The position numbers and the translations under genes are program-made. The notes below the pieces were generated by a model. That model was not told the DNA's origin. It did not search any database and saw only the letters and a list, made by a program, of their open reading frames with translations. A stretch of DNA of 64,000 nt, from assembly GCF_921293095.1 (NCBI RefSeq), contig NC_060248.1:78375243-78439242 (forward strand). Direction: 5' to 3'. Source of the stretch: Ischnura elegans. Its lineage: Eukaryota; Arthropoda; Insecta; Odonata; Coenagrionidae. Shown here one piece after another: positions 27,693 through 64,000 of the stretch; the first letter of the stretch is position 1, and every line of letters begins with the position of its first letter.

Positions 27693-29267
27693 CATGGATG
27701 AAGCTCTGTTTCAAATTATTAAAATGTAATCCTCTGCCAAAAAAACTGTCTCTTATCAAGTTAGGGGAATTTCTCTCTTCCCCCCTTCAATCCTCTGTTG
27801 AATTTTTAAAAAAGGTTTAGAGGGAAGAGGAATAAACAAGAGAAGTTGAGGATGTGGATCTGAAGCTTCCATGATTTCCAATTAGTTTGAAACAAAGTGT
27901 TCTGTTCATATTTTGGTGAAAAAAATAAGCCTTCCCCTGCTGGTAATGTACATTCGTGTGCATGTCTATGAACAACTGTGGGAAAGCATTGGTACGTACT
28001 TGCTCGTTCAGCCATCTCTTCCTTCCTGCTCCCTAAGTCCTTTCTCATTGTTGCAGACTTCTTTTATGGGGTGTTCATTTAACAAGCAACAATCAACATT
28101 TGAAAATGAAAATGTCCACAGATTTATTTAACTATGTATTTGTGATGCAAAATGGCATAAACAATGTTCCCAACTCAGAAACCAACTCACTACCCATTAC
28201 TTTTCCTCAGTGGGCAACACTATCCTGCAACTATACTGTCAGATTAAATGGGATACATCATCATATGTTATAGGACTAAACTCTTTTCTTAAAAGGAAAA
28301 TGGCTATTCTGACACTTTTTTATCCTAATCCCTCTCTGTTTAGGGGTAGATTTTCATTGGCGTGAACAGCGAGCCATGTCCCAAATATCCTCGATTCATT
28401 CTATTTATGGGTTTGTACCAATTATTTCCTTGGTGCTTCATATAGAATTCTGCAGAAAATTACAAGAAAACTTATTATGATACCTCTTTTGTAGATTTAT
28501 TATACCTGCTAAAATGTTTTTCTGAGTGAACTGAAGTTGCACTAATCTGTCACCTAATGGCCAGGTGACCTGAAAGCTGTCACGAAAACAAACTCTCTGT
28601 GGGAGTATGCAATAGATAGAGAGAAAGAGGGCATATCCTGAATTTTCCTCACAAACATTTCCAAATGTCTCCAACTGCCCCTGAATGCTGGCGAACTGAG
28701 GTGGCCAGTTGCATGACTGCCGAGTACTCCATAGGCAAAATATCATTCGCCCAAAGGAAAACCCCTTCTCAGGTCCTTATACCCAATGATCTCTCCGAAG
28801 GGGTTGTTAAGGCATTTAGCTGAATGCCAGCTAAAACTGCGAACTTTGAGCGAATGGCCATGGTTGGCCACCTCCTTAATCTGGTTGCCTCCAAGCACAA
28901 ACTCACATGACCAAGGACCCTGAATGGGGAGAATTTGGGTTTTACATTTGCTTGCAGGTCCCTAAGACCAGGACATTTCCAGGGGAGCCTCAAGAAAAGG
29001 GTCAGGTGGAGATTGCAAGGGTTCTTTTTATCTGCTCTACCCTACCCTAGCATCCTTTGAGTTTATACCACTCATTGTAGAGAACTAATTATTTAGGTGC
29101 CATAGCTGATAGATTAATCGCAATGTTAACCATCAAAAGTTACAACCTATAAAAAGAACAGTATTATGAAAATCACCCTTAATTGCCATGTGAGAAATAT
29201 CACCTGGACCAGTAATCAAAACACAGACCATTGCATTTCAGGACCACAGCAGAGACGACTACTTTTT
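27693..29267. other. No supportable gene
   Basis: Minus-strand ORFs at 28438-28746 and 28769-28993 have somewhat protein-like composition but no domain I recognise, and they may be remnants of a decayed gene or element. Confidence 0.35.
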
Positions 29268-29374
29268 ACTCTCTTTAGCAGCACATATACTCAAAGTTAC
29301 TTAGATATGATGAAGAGAAAATTAGCATGACCCTTGCACAAGGGTGACACTCAAATTCATGGAAAATTCCATAT
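29268..29374 (+). pseudogene. U6 spliceosomal snRNA pseudogene
   Basis: This 107-nt stretch aligns end to end with U6 snRNA. It has TTAGCAGCACATATACT near the 5' end (U6: TTCGGCAGCACATATACT). The centre reads ATTAGCATGACCCTTGCACA (U6: ATTAGCATGGCCCCTGCGCA) and continues AGGGTGACAC. The 3' part has CAAATTCATG and TTCCATAT. The ACAGAGA box that contacts the 5' splice site is not intact (ATGATGAAGAGAA in its place), there are many substitutions, and no T-run terminator follows. I see a full-length but dead copy, probably made by retroposition. Confidence 0.85.
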
Positions 29375-29709
29375 CAATGTCGTATATGTATTAATTTATT
29401 ATACTGTGTGAATTTTTTCACTGGGCAATTTATGTGAATTTCTTTGCCATTCACCTAGAGAAAAACCTGGATTATTCTTCTCATAGAATGATCTACCTTA
29501 TCTCTAGGGACAGTAAATTCAGTTTTGCTGGTGATAGCCCATGTCACCCTAATAGCAGTGATGGGATTCTCCATCCTTTCCTTCCGCTCCTATCCCACTC
29601 CCCTGAAGCATCAGCAGTATCATTATATTGCAGTGGTGACTCCTTCCTTCCCCTGTCGTCCCCTCTTCTGTCTGACTTACGAGCCTGGCCCCAGGAGTGT
29701 ATCCCTCCA

Positions 29710-36984: not shown

Positions 36985-39900
36985 ATACAATTTAAATTAT
37001 GCATCTATAAAATTCATAATTTTCTCTACACTTTATTATTGCCTGGGGAAAAATCAACTGCCAGATGGCAGAGTAAGCTATTCCCCCAGAAAATAGACAA
37101 TTATAACATAGATGAAAAAGTTACACCTCGAGGAACCAGCTCATATAGGCAAGAAAAATGTCCACCTCTATAATTCCATTTTTGGTATACATGTTTGAAC
37201 CTTAAGAAATTGAGAAATTTACTTAATGTCATCTGAATCCATTCATATACGGCCCTTGTAGCTTCAGCAGAGTTGCTTCAGTCATGATACCAGCCCATTT
37301 ATCAACTTAAAAGGTGCATAAACTCTAAAAGAAAAACTCATTGTTAAAAGAACTAATTGTTTTCATTTTTACCTGATACCCAAAAGTCATGCTTGAAAAA
37401 AGGCAAATAATTTGTTACGTACTTGATTTGAAACCTAAAATGGTCCTCAGTTATAATGCAAGGAAATCCATACACATTGCCACCCTCTGAAATAAAGTTA
37501 TTAATTTAAGAGGCTAAGATCTAAGCTCAAACTAAATCAAGGGTGCTATTTACACCAAGGATGACATTCGCAATTAAAATCAGCACGATTAGCCTGGATT
37601 TAAATCCAGATAAGGAGATCCCAGTTCAAATCTCTACTGAGTTACACGATTTTGTCATGGTTGATTTCACCCTGGATGTAAATATTGGACAGCTACTATA
37701 AGCCCGTGCGTAAAACTCTTGAAATGAGAAAATTATATAATAACTGATAAATCTCATAATGCAATTTTTCCAAAGGGACTGCAGTTTCTGATAACCTTAA
37801 AGATAATGTAATAAACTCGAGGTAATGTTCTCTCTGATCTCTTTCTGCTGATCAGTGAAATTTCTAATGGGAAATATCACCAGATTATAATAATCTTGGC
37901 CATGGATCTGAAAATTCTCAAGCAATCTTTATCTCCAGTAAAATGTTAGTCGCATGGACACCAGGCACGATTGGTTTTTACAGCTTAGTCAGATTATGGT
38001 ATGCATTCAAAATTAAAGCAATGTAATTGGGGACATTTGATGCTGATGACATACTCCCGACATGTCATATAGTAGGTAATTCTGTACTAAGAGGAGGATA
38101 TAATATTCTCTTTTACCTCTCATGTATGGCTTTTTACAAACTTAACAAATTTCCCAGGCATCACATCAAATTATTTTATATTATTTCCAGCTACTATGAC
38201 TATCCATTAGGCAGGAAGCAAGTAAGACTCCCCAAAGTTTTCCATTTATATTATCAACACTACCTTGGATTTTCCTTATTTCCATCAAGTGACTTGTCTG
38301 TGGTCAAACTCAAGGAGTATTTTACATGTCCATCCTAAATAGTATGAATACTCATTAATTTCAACCGATTAAATGCCCACTTTCTTTTCATAATATGACA
38401 ATATATACTTTTTGTGGTATGTTACTTCACTAGCTCCTCTGATCAAGTGAACAATGGTAGGTTGAACCTTCCTATGCCAATTGATTTCCAAATTTTTGTG
38501 GCACTAGCCTTGCCAACTCAACCAACACAAGGTTAACTAGACTTGCTACATGTATAGGGTCTGCTGAACTCTAACCAAAGAATGTTTTTAGAGGGAGGCA
38601 GAGTTTCCGGAACCCAAGTTACAACAGACTTCATGTTTTGTGACAACATAGTAAATCTTTTCTGATGAAATATCTGATATAAGGAGCATGTTACTATTCA
38701 TAAATGCAATCATGATTGAATTCTTCAATAAACTATCCATTTATGCCTGCACACTGTGTGACTATCATTTAATAAGAACATAACATTAATAAGACAGAAA
38801 TACTCTGCAGAGGTTTACCAGTTGTTTATTATGAGTTTCATGTAACAACTTTTGTCAGCAGATAAAACAGGATTTATTTAAAATACATTTGTGTACTGCT
38901 CAGAAGTTTCGGACTAACCACAGGTACGAGTTTGAAGAATTAAATTTGTTAAGCATTGAACAGACATTTCCATGACAGATTTGACAGACATGACAAATTT
39001 AATACATCTCAAAGTCAAAACTGCAACTTAATTACTTTAGTGCAAATAAAGGAATAAATTGTCTCATAAAAAACTTAAGTCCATTGCAACTGAGCAGGCA
39101 TTAATTTAATGGCTTTGAGAGTACTTATCTCTCAACTCTTCAAACTGAACATTTGAATATTCAGAAATTATTAGTTAATTTTCAATGTTATAAATTTACA
39201 AAATGACATTTTAAACCATCTATAAATCCTGAGTTTTTCTTTCAATGTCAATCTGTATTAATTTCAATCCTCTGGCATTCGTGGAGATTCTCTACCAAGG
39301 GTACAATTACACTAATGAATACATAACTCCATTTTTAGGATTTAAGAAGAGCCTAGGAGTATACATATTACAGACACAATATAAACAAATAAGAAGTTAC
39401 CAAACCAGTAAGCTCAAGAAAATTACAATAATCCACAAACATTGGGAATGAATAATTTCATAACACCTTACACAATGTGTGTACGCAAATAATAAGAAAT
39501 GCATTGAATGGCAATTTATCCTTAGACTAACATTGCATTATTGCATGAAAACCCTTACCACAGATTCCATCCAAGGAGTAATTGCAAAAGAAATCTCTCT
39601 TACATCTAAGTCTACATTAGTAAGTGTGGCAACTGGATAATACTCGGTGAGAAGGCATTCAGAAGACAGATATAGATGGTTTCCATAGGTCCATACATTG
39701 TGAGCTCAATGCTACAGAAGTCGACAGGCAAATTGAATATTTGTTTAAAAGGGCTAGGTTTGAAAGACTGGACGTGCTTAGGTGTGAGAGGTGTGGGACC
39801 TACTCCCTTCTCCCCATACCTTGCTCACAATTTTGCAGAAAATGGGAGGGGGGGAGTAGAAGTCTGGGAAAGACTAAAGGAGTCAGCGGATGATAAGGTA

Positions 39901-40004
39901 TTGAGGAGGGGCAGGAGATTTGGGGTCATACATTAACATACACACACACAGACATAATTCTGGAGCAGATCTAAGACTTGTGTTGGAAGAGATCCCTTTC
40001 CTGC
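36985..40004 (-). other. FKBP12 3' UTR and intergenic DNA
   Basis: No coding feature seen. On the minus strand the first good AATAAA downstream of the FKBP12 stop is at 38825-38830, which would give a 3' UTR of about 1.2 kb. This is inferred from the signal alone. Confidence 0.35.
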
Positions 40005-42184
40005 TCATGGCTCCACCTTCAGCAGCTCCACATCGAAGATGAGAGTAGCATTTGGTGGAATAGTGGGCATCAGTCAAGGAAATTTTACGTGACAATTGCA
40101 ACAAACTGCATAAAATTAGAAGGAAATCAATTTTTCGGTCAACTTCACATTCAAACATTTTTTATAACACACTAACCATTTACAAGAAATCAAAATATGA
40201 AGGCCACTCTTCACTGTGAATGATCACCTGATAGAGCAGAAGAGAATATGTTCTAATTTACACTGAAAGATCACGTGCATGATGGATCATTTGCAAATTT
40301 TTCCGTTACACATGGCGAATGATTTCATTTGAATGATCATTCACTGTGTATAGCAGCTTTAACTGACATCTAATTTCTCCTGGCATGATAAAAACTAGAA
40401 TGAAATTTTTAGTAGCCTTACCAGTAGCTCAAACAATACATTTTGTTTACTTAAATGTAAAATATCATTACCCTTTCAGGGATTGCTTATTTCCCCATGA
40501 ATTTTAACATACCAAGGTGGCAATATTTTAAAACATTTCACGAGCTCTTTGATATACAAAGGGATCTATTATAACATTACCTACTCACAGCAAAAATAGT
40601 TGAACAATAGGTGCAATTATTACATCAACCATCCAACCACAGACAAGCCATTTACATAGCTCGTGTAGTTCATTAGGATTCTCTACATCTACTTACAGAG
40701 GCAAATAGATTTTATTTTCACTGTTTAACATTACTTGAACTCAAATTGCAGCTCTTGTGGGAGAATTGATCTTGATTGTGTCTACTCTTTGCTTACCAAA
40801 AAATAAAAGAAATGAAAAGTGACATAACGCCCTGTACAAATTCTTTCAGATTTCCTAAAGCCTGAATGGGATATTTTTAGCAAAAGGATAAAAAATCGAC
40901 ATTTTTTCCACTGCCTAAGAGTAATAACAGAACAACTTAACAATCGCAAAATATCACTGGCAGGTAAGGATATAAGACTAAAATAACAACTAAACATAAG
41001 AAGGAAGATTCGCCCACTTCACCTTGTCACCATGCAGTACCATTGACCTACTAAGTTAATCAACGATCAATGCAACTATTCAAGGTATAATACAACATGC
41101 ATAACATACAACAACATATTGATGCACACGAAACACCTATATTAAGGGAAAATTTAAAAAAATATGTGCCAATTGATGTTACGTGTAAAAAGAGCAATTT
41201 TTAAAAGGGATCAAAATATATATTAAAATTATTCCCGTTACTATTCAAAAGGATATATTCCAGGGTGCCCTCTTGCTCCATAGCCGTAATCAGGGGAGCA
41301 CGTAAGACGTGCGCGCTGACCAACACAGAGCTGAAAAAGAAGAGAGAACCAACGTCAAAGCTATATTCGCGGATGTATCCACCGATTACTTGTTCTGTTT
41401 AATCACTATCTGACATTCCAAATAATAAAAAAAACTGCACCCATGCGAATTTTAAATCGAAAAAGTAATAAATTATTAAATACCTGGGCAACTCCCTCGT
41501 CCCAGCCTTTGATGACTTCTCCTTTCCCAATGCGGAACTTAAATGGCACACTTCTGTCTCGTGACGAATCAAATTTTGTTCCATTCGTCAGAGTACCTAA
41601 AGCAACACATACGGTAAGAAATTCGAAAATTGGCCGCCTATACGAGAAAATTCGAATTTAAGAAACTTTCTTCCTCCACTTACCCGTATAATGGACTACT
41701 ACGGTCTGCCCATACTTTGGATAAGTTTGCCCTGAAATAGACAATACGTCAAGTAAGCTTAAATACTAGCAACAATACTTCATTCATATCCTGCATTAAT
41801 AATGGCATGCTCTTACGATATCTATACACGCCATGTTCATAGGAATTACCTCAAGGATTACCATCTATTAAATAGATACAACAACATTGATTTTTTTATT
41901 TTTTTTTAAATCCATTGTCTAACTTCAACTGAGCTGAGAAAACCACATCGGCACCAATGCGGCATCTATTCTTACAACTAACACCAACTAATTCGCACCA
42001 ACTATACATATCATCAACCTGAAACCAAACATCAGCTGCTAATACCACCAAATAATATCTAATTAAAGGCACACTGAATTAGTTGAAACCCAAATAGCCT
42101 TAATAAATTAAAACCGTTACAAATTTCCCGTTAAAGACATTAATTACCATCGCCGGGAGAAATGCTTTCCACTTCAACACCCAT
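40005..42184 (-). CDS. FKBP12: 12-kDa FK506-binding protein, peptidyl-prolyl cis-trans isomerase (5 coding exons)
   Basis: Cytosolic FKBP-type prolyl isomerase, known to bind FK506/rapamycin and to modulate ryanodine receptors and TGF-beta type I receptors. Coding exons, in transcript order: 42184-42148, 41731-41684, 41596-41484, 41330-41257, 40062-40005. They join in frame to 109 codons, against 108 residues for the human protein. The N-terminus is [20 protein letters not shown] and the C-terminus is [11 protein letters not shown]. Ligand-pocket residues (numbered without Met) are all present: Y26, F36, D37, F46, V55, I56, W59, Y82, H87, I91, F99. Introns 1-3 are GT-AG. Intron 4 is AT-AC with U12 signals and splits the codon for I90, just before the conserved IPPNATL loop. 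Reading through intron 4 would stop after HPGIYPFE. The start Met is the conserved one. The gene looks intact. Confidence 0.96.
40063..41256 (-). other. U12-type AT-AC intron in FKBP12
   Basis: On the minus strand the exon ends GGAAT and the intron starts ATATCCTTTT at 41256, matching the U12 AT-AC donor consensus ATATCCTTT. Near the other end TTCCTTGACT (40081-40072) matches the U12 branch consensus TTCCTTRAC, with the branch A at 40074, 11 nt from the terminal AC at 40064-40063. No AG acceptor is available at the correct position, and the frame upstream contains a stop, so only the AT-AC junction gives a normal FKBP12. Length is 1194 bp. Confidence 0.93.
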
Positions 42185-42222
42185 GCTTCCTTCTTTTTGC
42201 TGGAAGTTTCTTCCGGAAACTA
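42148..42222 (-). other. FKBP12 exon with start codon; likely spliced 5' UTR upstream
   Basis: The sequence before the ATG at 42184 reaches a good acceptor (TTCTTTACAG) ending at 42223, giving 38 nt of 5' UTR in this exon. A donor-like GTGAGAAG begins at 42310, so a separate non-coding first exon may end at 42311. The GC-richer sequence at 42311-42400 fits a first exon or promoter. This part is inference. Confidence 0.5.
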
Positions 42223-42961
42223 CTGTAAAGAATAAATAGACGTAGTAGAAGTTACTGAAAGACCTATTGTAGGATGAATACAGCCAATGTATACCGAAAT
42301 GGCTTCTCACTTTGGCTGACTTGGACGACCACTCCTTCCTCGGTGGATGCCGTCGAGGCGTTATCAACGAAAAGTGGTGCCACCTGGCTGTCTTTATTCA
42401 AGCTAACATATTTTTCTGTTCCTATTTATGAATTACTTTTAAAAAGAAAATTAAGTTGTAAACGTTTTATTTTTCCAACTGCTCTCTTTTTAAATTATTT
42501 AAAAGGCCTTTTATCACCCTTAAACTCTAAAAGATAGCGGAGACTGATATTTTAAATACAGCTTGATTTGGCCGAGGATTAGCCGCCATATTCAGTTGTA
42601 TCACTTATTGGAAATGAAGGATATATACACTATTCACCTGCCTTAATTGAGAGAAAGCCTTACTTGAAAGACATTATATAACTGTAATTTTGATTAAGTC
42701 AATATTTTCACCTATTTTTATTGCTTATTATGATCTTAAGCAATTATAAATTAGCATTTGCCGCGCGCTTGATGATCAAGAGTGCTGCATGATGCAGGAA
42801 CCGGAGAGTTTAGATACATGGACGAATTATGAAAGAAATGGATTTACGGGAATGTAGCAGGAGGTGCAGTTAATGGGTCTGAGTTAGGCAAGTTAAGAAG
42901 GAAGCAAAATTTTTCTACCTCCAAGAGGGCCCAAATCCTACAATAATAATTACCCTTTACG

Positions 42962-59800: not shown

Positions 59801-62800
59801 TTGGAAAATACTCCCGACTTAGCAGGTATTCATGGATAGTGTACAATGAGACTACCTAAAACATTTCGCGCAAGACGTTTTAGAAAAAGCTCGTTACAGA
59901 GTTGGCTGATCCTCATGTTAGATGTAGATAAAAGTGTTGCGTGTCCAATGCCGCAGATTCTTCTGACGGGCTTCTGCAAATAAATTATTTCCCGGCAAAA
60001 CCAAAGTGCAAAAATAATCTATCAGTTGTGAATTGTATGACCTGCCAAAAGTCTTTGTGTGGGCAATGAAAATGAACGGCAATGCTTGAACTCTAAAGCA
60101 CCTCAGACAAATGCGTGGCGTATCAACTGCATTTTTTTGCTTTATTTAATTATCTTCCCAACTACCATGTAGCCTAAGTAATATTTTTGATCATTCAAAC
60201 AATATGATAAAATGTGTTGAAAAGTCTACGTTTGCTATTTTATCCAATTCCTCCATTATAATTCTATTAAAACAACATAACATGTAAGAAAAAAGAATTT
60301 CAAAGCAACACTGTCGAATTTCGCATTTAAAAAAATATATTTTTTTGTTAAAACGACGCCTGAAATATTGCTATTATTAACAAAAATGATAAACAAATGC
60401 AATCTATCAATAAAAACAGACATAAACAGCAAAAATAAACAATTATAAGGTAGGAGTCAAAATGACTCCATTCGGTAGTTCTAGGGGGGGTGTCAAGTCC
60501 GGTATTCCTAGTGTTAAGCGGTTTTCTTAGTGCCTATAAATGGGTAGATTTACAGTACCATAGATAGGCTGATGGGTCTTGTGAATCAATCCTTTTATTT
60601 TAGCATGCATATTTTTATTCAAATTATTGCATTTTATGGCTCTATGGATCCCTAGTGATTTTCTTTGCTCTCAAGGGTTAGCATGGATAGGAATCTTGTT
60701 CCTACTTCAAGTTACCTAAAAGTGACTAATTTGGGACTAGTTTTGCTATCGCATCATCTGGAAATCTTATTTAATATATACAGGTTAGTTTTCAGTTAAA
60801 CGATATGCAGCAGTCAAAATGTCAAATATGGTTTGATGAGATATCCTACCAGGAGATTGGAATGGTTTTAATGGTGCGTACTGCATAATCTTCTGGGGTG
60901 TTAGCTAATATTTATCATTTAAATCCACAGCTTGTGAAGGACCTGATTGGTTCAGATGCCACAATGGGATTTGTTTAAGCCATCACTACTTGTGTGATCA
61001 AGAAAACAACTGTGGTGATTGGTCTGATGAGCAGTCCTGTTCAGAGTTCCAAGTAAGAAGCCTTTTATATAAATAGCAATTTTGATGAAATGAGAAATCA
61101 ATGAAATAATGAAAAATCCTTCCCCTGAATGCTACTTAATGTGAGGGTGCTGGTATAATGATTAAACATTTCTCCCCTAGTACACACCACCTCCAGCTAA
61201 GTGTGGTAAATCAGAGTGGCTGTGTTTGGATAATATCTGCATTCCAGAATCTTGGGTTTGTGATGGAAAGACAGACTGCTTGGATGGAAGTGATGAAACA
61301 TTAGGCTGTTCAACAAAGGTTGGTTTTCATAACTTTGTGTTACTTTTTTGTTCCTGTTCCTAGAAAAAGGTTCTAAATTTGAATGTGGTTTCTAGATTGA
61401 CTGTGATGGATTCAGATGCAAAAACAAGCAATGTATCCCCTCAGAATGGCAGTGTGATGGTGCCAAAGACTGCACTGATGGAAGTGATGAGGAGAATTGT
61501 CGTGAGTATAATATTTCCCTACAATGCATAATTTTAACTTAAATTTCTTTGTTAACACATGCCCTGCCATAGATTTTTGATAAGTTACCCATTGCACCGA
61601 AATTTTTATTTTCCTTTCTCTTTAATACTTGGTTCCTTTCAGTTTGTTTTTTTTGTGCATTTGTCTGTGTGCTACCACGTCCTTCACATCATATAATTGG
61701 CAATGAAGTAGCTGAGACTAATGGTGTGCTAAGAGAGGCCAGAAGTGAACGTGTTAATTAATGAAATACATTTCTGTTGATAACTGGAGTAACATTTTTC
61801 TCTTATTTTGGAATTATCAGGTGTTGATGTGAAGGCAAAGGATTGTACTACTGCAAATGGATTCTTCCTATGTAATGACACTGTCTCTTGCATTCCACTG
61901 AAATCAATGTGCGATGGCAAAAATGACTGCAGTGATGGGTCAGATGAAGGTGGCAATTGTGGTAAGGAAACTTATAAGTTGATCTTAAAAATTCAGTTTT
62001 TCTGATACGTAGAATTTAATGATTAACTTTAATTCTCAGGGTCCAATCTCTGTGATAAGTTTGGATGCAGTCATTCATGTGTGATGGAGCCAACAGGTCC
62101 ACAATGTATCTGTCCGAAAGGATATAGGCTTGATGGGAAAGTGTGCAAAGGTAGGTGCATTTTCTGAATTTATTAATGCAATACCTTGGTGGCTGATTTG
62201 TAATCCATCCTGGTTGATTTCAGATATTGACGAGTGTAAGAAATATGGAAGATGCAGCCAGAAGTGTACCAACACCCCTGGAAGTTACATTTGTTCCTGT
62301 GAAAGGGGCTACACATTGGATAAAAACAATTCATCATGTAAAGCAGAGGGTAAGCATATCCCTCTTTGTTAAAATTTTCCCTCTCTTGATGTATATCTGC
62401 CTGTAGCAGAGCATAGCCATCTACAAAAATAAGACTTAAACTGTAATCTACTCTAGATTTTCCTGGATTATTCATATAATTGACCACATTCCACCTGCGT
62501 AATTCTTATTAATGAAATTAAAGTAATACTTTGTTAATCCATGAAAATTGTAAATGTAATTTTAATCCATCCATGGATCAAAAATGGATTAACAACTACA
62601 TTCTGTTCTTGATATTAAAATCAATGGCCTATGCAATGAAATCTTAGCAATATAGCTGGTGTAGTCTAGAATTCCAATGCACTGTAAAAAAGGAAAGTTG
62701 GTATTAGATGACATTGGGACGGGATCAAGTATTCAAACTAAAACTGAGGACTCACTTGCATAAAGGATGGCATACATGCTTTTAATTGAAATGATATACA

Positions 62801-63932
62801 TAGTTCTTAATTTACCTTCAGGCAAGGCTCTAAAATGTCTCTAATATTCCAGGCCTTGATGCAGTACTTATATTCACAACTCGGCGTGAAATCAAAGGGC
62901 TCTACCTAGATACGAAGATGTATTTCCCTATTCAACGAAAGCTAACTCAGTGTATCGGTGTAGCTTATGATGGAGATAGGGTATACTGGACTAACATTGA
63001 CCATGGAGAAGAAACAATTATGCGTTCTAAGATTGATGGATCAGAGATAGAGCCAGTTGTAACATCAGGTGAGTGCTTGGGGGTTGTTGTTCTTGCAGTT
63101 GTTCCTTAATGATTTCTGAAGTCATTGATCAAAAATGGACTCTCTGCCAAGATTTATTTTATTAAGAATTAATTTTTTTCACATTCTTGACTTTATTTCT
63201 AGGCCTCAGCCTTCCAGAAGAATTGACAGTGGACTGGTTGGCTGGAAACTTGTACTTCACTGATGCTGAAGCACATCACATAGGTGTCTGCACTTTGAAT
63301 GGAGACATTTGCACTGTTCTAGTGAATGCAGATGTGGATTCACCCAGAGGAATTACACTTATTCCACAGCAGGGGTGAGATTCTGATTAATTATTATTAG
63401 GGGCATAGCCAGGATGATGTTGGGGGAAATGACCTGGGGGTAAGGGGGGCTGGAACCCTCCTCTAGAGTAAATTTTAATATTTTCATCTCTAAAAATAGC
63501 ATTTTATGCTACTTTAGCTCATGAAATCAGATGATCGATGGGGCGTCAGGAAGCTGTTATGCTAAAACAGATTGTTGGGAAAGAATTTTTTTATGGGTTA
63601 TTATTCTATTAAAATTGGTTTTGGGGGCACCTGCCCCCTATTTCCCCAAAATTATAAATCATAATATGTAATTATGTACTAGTATAAATTGCACAACATA
63701 GGTCACTTACAACTATTCTTCACATTACAGATATGTATTTTGGACTGACTGGGGGCAAAAACCAATGATAGCAAGAGCTGGTATGGATGGTAGTGATCCT
63801 GTGGCATTTGTAGACAGAGATCTTCAGTGGCCAAATGGGTTGGCTCTGGATTACCCTGCTGAAAGATTGTATTGGGTTGATGCAAAATTGATGATCATCG
63901 AATCCATAAAACTTGATGGGACTGACAGGAGG
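53852..63932 (+). CDS. VgR: Vitellogenin receptor-type LDL receptor family protein, N-terminal 493 codons (11 exons, gene continues)
   Basis: Oocyte-surface endocytic receptor for yolk protein, by family. Exons: 53852-53862, 55254-55387, 60931-61052, 61181-61318, 61396-61501, 61821-61961, 62040-62150, 62224-62349, 62853-63068, 63203-63374, 63731-63932. All introns are GT-AG and all phases join. Residues 1-48 form a signal region with a hydrophobic core at 31-42 ([12 protein letters not shown]), preceded by about 30 polar residues; Met11 is an alternative start. Four LDLa repeats follow (50-85, 97-132, 138-170, 179-217), the last three with DGSDE-type calcium motifs. Next are an EGF domain (222-253), a calcium-binding EGF (DIDEC, 255-292) and the start of a YWTD propeller (VYWTN, LYFTD, VFWTD, LYWVD). 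The segment [20 protein letters not shown] is typical of insect VgR. Five LDLa repeats are usual in many insect VgRs; I find four. Intron 2 (5.5 kb) holds a MITE and a piggyBac. Lipophorin receptor or LRP are less likely. Confidence 0.88.
57480..57787 (-). mobile_element. hAT-type MITE, family A, copy 4
   Basis: A 308-bp element, CAGGGGCGCAGCTAGG to CACGCTGTGCCACTG, inside intron 2 of the receptor gene. Both flanks are TGGTAGAC (57472-57479, 57788-57795), a perfect 8-bp target duplication, so this is the youngest-looking family A insertion here. The first 2.1 kb of the intron (55388-57479) holds nothing else I can identify except an 11-nt G run at 57232. Confidence 0.95.
57796..57868 (-). mobile_element. 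End fragment of another hAT element, with a G17 run
   Basis: The sequence AAAAAAGTTTGGGAACCCCTG at 57848-57868, reversed, is the CAGGGGTTCCCAAACTTTTT terminus typical of a widespread hAT group. It is preceded by a run of 17 G at 57821-57837. The other terminus is not visible. Confidence 0.6.
57965..60513 (+). mobile_element. Decayed piggyBac DNA transposon in VgR intron 2
   Basis: Flanked by TTAA on both sides (57961-57964, 60514-60517), with ends CACTAG...CTAGTG. The transposase runs left to right. It has an N-terminal start at 58814 ([20 protein letters not shown]), then pieces such as [30 protein letters not shown] (the region carrying a catalytic Asp), [20 protein letters not shown] and [11 protein letters not shown]. 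The C-terminal Cys-rich segment is [10 protein letters not shown] near 60040. The frame is lost soon after 58999 and shifts several times, so the copy is inactive. It lies sense to the host gene and far from the splice sites. Confidence 0.9.
57981..57997. repeat. Subterminal palindrome of the piggyBac element (one of three)
   Basis: GGAGTCATTTTGACTCC occurs at 57981-57997, 58160-58176 and (reverse complement) 60453-60469. Each is preceded by CTACCRAWRG-like sequence (AACTACCGAT, AACTACCAAAG, AACTACCGAAT). They probably mark transposase binding sites. Confidence 0.85.
63398..63650 (+). mobile_element. hAT-type MITE, family C, copy 2 (right end lost)
   Basis: Lies in intron 10 of the receptor gene. 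The left end TAGGGGCATAGCCAGGA and the internal GATGGGGCGTCAGGAAGCTG match the 45958 copy. The right terminus expected after GGGGGCACCTGCCCCC is not recognisable. The element sits 24 bp downstream of the exon 10 donor and 80 bp upstream of the exon 11 acceptor, nearly filling the 356-bp intron. Confidence 0.75.
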
Positions 63933-64000
63933 GTAAGTTTGTCTTCAAATTTAAAAAGTTTATTATCTTGACTCGTTAAGGGCACTGTTAGAACTTGCAA

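Follow-up and report, generated by a model that had tools for sequence, protein, structure and literature searches.

The FKBP12 locus and its fourth intron

The window, i.e., the whole stretch of 64,000 nucleotides that was analyzed, lies on contig C3 of the assembly used for all genome searches (1.72 Gb, 110 contigs). Its minus strand carries an intact FKBP12 gene with five coding exons (Table 1). The joined coding sequence comprises 330 nt including its TGA stop and encodes 109 amino acids. Compared with Pfam, the joined protein showed a full FKBP_C domain (PF00254, E 1.8e-36), and in the PDB it matched FKBP1A/FKBP1B chains over residues 1–108 (E about 3e-54). Members of the FKBP12 group (FKBP1A/1B) consist of a single, full-length FKBP_C domain of about 108 residues, as was found here. 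Introns 1–3 measure 416, 87, and 153 nt, respectively, and all have GT-AG termini. We take the human FKBP12 coding region to consist of four exons, with its introns placed as introns 1–3 of the present gene. Four exons are also given for the fly FKBP12 gene in a passage of PMC5870485.

Table 1. Coordinates of the FKBP12 gene parts and of the elements of its fourth intron.
Feature	Position in window	Strand	Remarks
FKBP12 exon 1, coding part	42184-42148	-	ATG at 42184
FKBP12 exon 2	41731-41684	-	GT...AG introns on both sides
FKBP12 exon 3	41596-41484	-	GT...AG introns on both sides
FKBP12 exon 4	41330-41257	-	3' end reads ...CAC CCT GGA AT
FKBP12 exon 5, coding part	40062-40005	-	T ATT CCA CCA ... 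GAG CCA TGA; stop included
FKBP12 intron 4, AT-AC, predicted U12-type	41256-40063	-	1194 nt, phase 2
Predicted U12-type 5' splice site ATATCCTTTT	41247..41256	-	same ten bases at PHB2 AT-AC intron
Putative branch site TTCCTTGAC	40073..40081	-	branch A putatively at 40074
3' splice site, terminal AC	40063..40064	-	
Dispersed MITE-like repeat in intron 4	40200-40360		27-nt imperfect inverted ends; repeat coverage about 40193-40366 (intron bases ~891-1064)

Intron 4 reads ATATCCTTTTGAAT...TTCCTTGACTGATGCCCAC, and its 3' part consists of TTCCTTGAC followed by TGATGCCCAC. U12-type introns of the AT-AC subtype have the 5' splice site consensus ATATCCTTT and, near their 3' end, the branch site consensus TTCCTTRAY. 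The donor ATATCCTTTT satisfies the former and TTCCTTGAC the latter. From the putative branch A to the last intron base we counted 11 nt; the intron ends in AC, the reading frame is open across the junction, and exon 5 is unbroken as far as its stop codon. On re-reading the sequence, we found the intron coordinates, donor, branch site, acceptor, and 11-nt spacing just as a preliminary description of this DNA had given them. It had also placed the split codon next to I91, a numbering that holds if the initiator Met is omitted; counted from Met, the split codon itself is that of Ile91 (Ile90 without Met), directly before the next Ile. This neighboring Ile is presumably the one that contacts the ligand.

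Intron 4 contains a dispersed, MITE-like repeat. We counted at least 39 other places of this repeat in the genome, the best pieces being 78–88% identical (40 of 512 candidates scored); this count was obtained from 42 match rows after subtracting the intron itself and two second pieces of the same places. The repeat is clear of the intron 4 donor, branch site, and acceptor. A transposon origin of intron 4 was considered and rejected, because neither of its splice sites lies in the repeat.

The remainder of the window was also surveyed. At Rfam gathering scores, U6 at 29266–29378 (+) was the only match (51.7 bits, gathering 44) and is possibly a U6-derived copy, and at E values up to 0.1 there was no Rfam match in 39900–42400. 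Pfam was run on 10 of the 191 stop-to-stop frames of at least 65 residues, and 3 of these 10 matched. Frames with EGF_CA and Ldl_recept_b domains lie at 62085–63968 (+), of which 62834–63106 stayed under the Pfam cut-off; they probably belong to a gene for an LDL-receptor-related protein. In the genome, four matches to the odorant receptor family PF02949 scored above cut-off, each with one to three internal stops; this family is not known outside insects, and the matches lend indirect support to an insect as the source. Exact arrays of five TTAGG units hardly occur genome-wide, with two overlapping matches at one place.

The exon 4/exon 5 junction

We enumerated all junctions, letting the donor range from 20 nt inside exon 4 up to 120 nt inside the intron and the acceptor from 40 nt inside the intron up to 30 nt inside exon 5. 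Within this range, 412 in-frame junctions keep the C-terminal peptide, five of them with AT-AC termini and none with GT-AG or GC-AG, which bears out the earlier claim that a GT-AG splice would cost the protein its conserved end. Only one of the five AT-AC junctions, 41256/40063, restores HPGIIPPNATL. It is likewise the only one with legal termini among the 21 junctions of the enumerated range that leave the length unchanged. Shifting it by one base yields an identical peptide, but the termini then read TA-CT.

With the window modeled as an order-2 Markov chain, the probability per position is 1.3e-5 for ATATCCTTT and 3.4e-5 for TTCCTTRAY. Just two placements of the donor leave the peptide unchanged, and the donor occupies one of them; taking these two placements together with 14 allowed branch positions, a product calculated by hand gives a joint chance of about 1e-8. 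Counting both strands, the window has two occurrences of TTCCTTRAY and 11 RTATCCTT sites. For 3 of these 11 sites TTCCTTRAY follows within 5 kb downstream, and it is always the intron 4 branch site. Genome-wide, we counted 11,373 copies of ATATCCTTTT on one strand and 10,254 on the other, about 6e-6 per position and strand. This is about twice the frequency of its reversed control (5540 and 5501 per strand). Three ATATCCTTTT copies spaced by 313 nt lie near 9.41 Mb on contig C1, and repeats may contribute to the excess.

Minor spliceosome components, PHB2, and alternative readings

Rfam models for all four snRNAs searched matched the genome above their gathering scores: U12 with 118.8 bits, U6atac with 98.8 bits and two weaker copies (63.2 and 46.3 bits), U11 with 93.1 bits, and U4atac with 82.4 bits. 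Moreover, an exon on contig C5 encodes a CHHC zinc finger (PF05253, 36.7 bits) and has as its best PDB match U11/U12 48K (E 4.7e-7), followed by GTSF1 chains (E 4.6e-6). We regard it as a candidate U11-48K exon only, because 1 of the 14 control genomes also gave a match to PF05253 and because GTSF1 came next in the PDB. Two further PF05253 matches stand side by side on contig C8 and are, we assume, more GTSF1-like. At sequence level, the minor spliceosome is represented in this organism by four snRNA matches and the candidate U11-48K exon.

As a control for a known AT-AC intron, we used human PHB2 as query against the same genome. Table 2 of PMC2831892 lists an AT-AC U12 intron in this gene for both fly and human. 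PHB2 is broken here after ...EAEAARM and resumes with LGEAMSKNPG, and the intervening intron reads ...GCTAGAATG/ATATCCTTTT...TACCTTAACTAGTTTTAC/TTGGGAGAG, with slashes at the splice sites (C4:77642504-77652143, loci L035 and L036; phase 0, about 9.6 kb). PHB2 indicates that the organism keeps AT-AC introns of the ATATCCTTTT form.

We also computed duplexes of the FKBP12 intron 4 sites with the genome's own snRNAs. For the donor and the U11 5' end, the duplex energy was −7.8 kcal/mol, a value that 14 of 2000 shuffles equaled or bettered. Donor and U6atac gave −6.8 kcal/mol (equaled or bettered by 229 of 2000), whereas branch site and U12 gave −7.1 kcal/mol (by 100 of 2000). The pairings agree with a U12-type intron and add little to it; only that of donor and U11 stands out.

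Three other readings of the locus were weighed against these data. The C-terminal peptide might stem from another 3' exon, 40062–40005 being a relic; nothing was found that favors this reading. The search for such an exon recovered the peptide only once in the six frames of the window, where the nearest other stretch, the only one with at most 9 mismatches in 17 positions, has 9 mismatches and two stops. A second DNA copy was not found in the genome search either, nor was a retrocopy of the spliced FKBP12 transcript, which would have testified to the junction at RNA level; all matches fell in the five exons of the gene itself. With 40062–40005 intact to its stop codon, we consider the probability of this reading to be practically negligible. 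Removal of the AT-AC intron by the major (U2) spliceosome has precedents, since U2-type AT-AC introns exist and make up 0–0.07% of U2-type introns in the animals of Table 2 of PMC7367187. The FKBP12 donor, however, fits the long U12 consensus, a full U12 branch motif stands near the intron end, and the identical donor recurs in this genome in PHB2, for which an AT-AC U12 intron has been published. Removal by the major spliceosome is thus extremely improbable.

A nearby U2-type GT-AG splice could be the real one or could compete within a twintron; it would lead from the GT at 41241 to an exon start at 40105 or 40227. The acceptors before 40105 (TTCCTTCTAATTTTATGCAG, score 5.58) and 40227 (6.24) are fair and lie within the range of the gene's real acceptors (0.79, 2.13, and 8.57), and the 40105 acceptor would leave the frame open for 78 residues beyond HPGI. 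The donor ATA/GTAACG at 41241, in contrast, is poor: with approximate scoring weights it reaches −2.1, and the best of the 11 GTs from 41316 to 41107 reaches −0.46, whereas the donors of the three GT-AG introns of the gene reach 1.73, 7.41, and 2.04. The predicted products speak against this splice as well. The 40105 product loses the conserved C-terminal end in exchange for an unrelated tail, translation of the 40227 product terminates after HPGIYPFE, and the GT-AG junctions of the enumerated range leave no variant with the conserved end. Even if used, an inner U2 intron would not make normal FKBP12. We judge it very unlikely that such a splice is real or competing.

Intron 4 of FKBP12 is almost certainly a true U12-type intron and belongs to the AT-AC subtype. 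This core reading of the preliminary description is strongly supported by the sequence, the minor snRNAs, and the PHB2 donor. We infer that the 41257/40062 junction is used in vivo and formed by the minor spliceosome. In the mechanism that we propose, U11 (with U11-48K) and then U6atac would recognize ATATCCTTTT, and U12 would pair with TTCCTTGAC, leaving the branch A bulged. The minor spliceosome would then join 41257 to 40062 and so complete the Ile codon of HPG-I-IPPNATL, giving full-length FKBP12. If intron 4 is retained, conceptual translation meets a stop four codons past this Ile codon, after ...HPGIYPFE, at 95 residues. Such a protein would lack the end of the FKBP fold, and the output of FKBP12 could be limited by how efficiently intron 4 is spliced. 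FKBP12 production may, as had been proposed before, be rate-limited by the minor spliceosome.

Intron history and comparison with known U12-type introns

Paralogous FKBPs were aligned at eight loci, corresponding to seven distinct regions as L021 and L022 overlap. Two of the seven regions end short of the FKBP12 intron 4 site, and none of the five spanning regions (L019, L022, L025, L026, and L027) has an intron there. Stops lie inside L025 and also inside L019. The paralogous FKBPs lend no support to intron 4.

Published surveys give some context for the history of the intron. FKBP12 is absent from the 19 Drosophila U12 introns of Table 2 of PMC2831892. According to passages of PMC10639083, Diptera underwent strong minor-intron loss and minor introns are biased away from phase 0; the human AT-AC share is given there as about 26%. 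In Table 2 of PMC7367187, AT-AC introns make up 8.6% of U12-type introns in Apis and 8.3% in Anopheles but 47% in Drosophila, so that the earlier statement that the AT-AC subtype is rarer still among insect U12 introns suits the bee and the mosquito and fails for the fly. Word searches of the literature, covering the main texts of largely open-access papers, found no published U12-type or AT-AC intron in FKBP12. 'FKBP' and 'FK506' are absent from the main texts of PMC2952598 and PMC7644725 on fly minor introns, and the relevant passages of PMC10351895 concern a degradation tag, not FKBP12 introns.

Survival of an old intron in FKBP12 seems more likely than its gain, because PMC2831892 names a single observed case of U12 intron gain in its comparison. 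We regard it as unlikely that FKBP12 acquired a U12 AT-AC intron in a lineage-specific manner or that its level tracks minor-spliceosome activity via intron retention. If the retention reading were true, the response to rapamycin and FK506 and the regulation of receptors by FKBP12 would follow minor-spliceosome activity.

As an AT-AC minor intron, intron 4 would be a well-defined addition to the few such introns of insects, the group to which the organism probably belongs, and it interrupts a short gene that has been much studied as a drug target. Gene prediction programs that insist on GT-AG termini would drop the last 18–19 residues of FKBP12. Moreover, the position of intron 4 offers a clean character for distinguishing an ancient U12 intron lost in some lineages from one gained in others.

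As read from its motifs, FKBP12 intron 4 is an addition to the known class of U12-type AT-AC introns, in a host gene for which we found no published example. It resembles this class in its ATATCCTTT donor, in TTCCTTRAY near the terminal AC, in its non-zero phase, and in the GT-AG termini of the other introns of the gene; it departs from the class in its host, a gene outside the fly list of PMC2831892 Table 2. The same table lists, as a twintron, the AT-AC U12 intron of prospero in Drosophila, likewise an insect. In contrast to prospero, FKBP12 has a poor inner U2-type donor, and splicing from it would not yield normal FKBP12. The PHB2 intron shares with FKBP12 intron 4 the ten-base donor ATATCCTTTT and the AC end within the same genome. 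It differs from the FKBP12 intron in its phase and its greater length, and in its gene, the level at which the comparison was made, an AT-AC U12 intron is published for fly and human.
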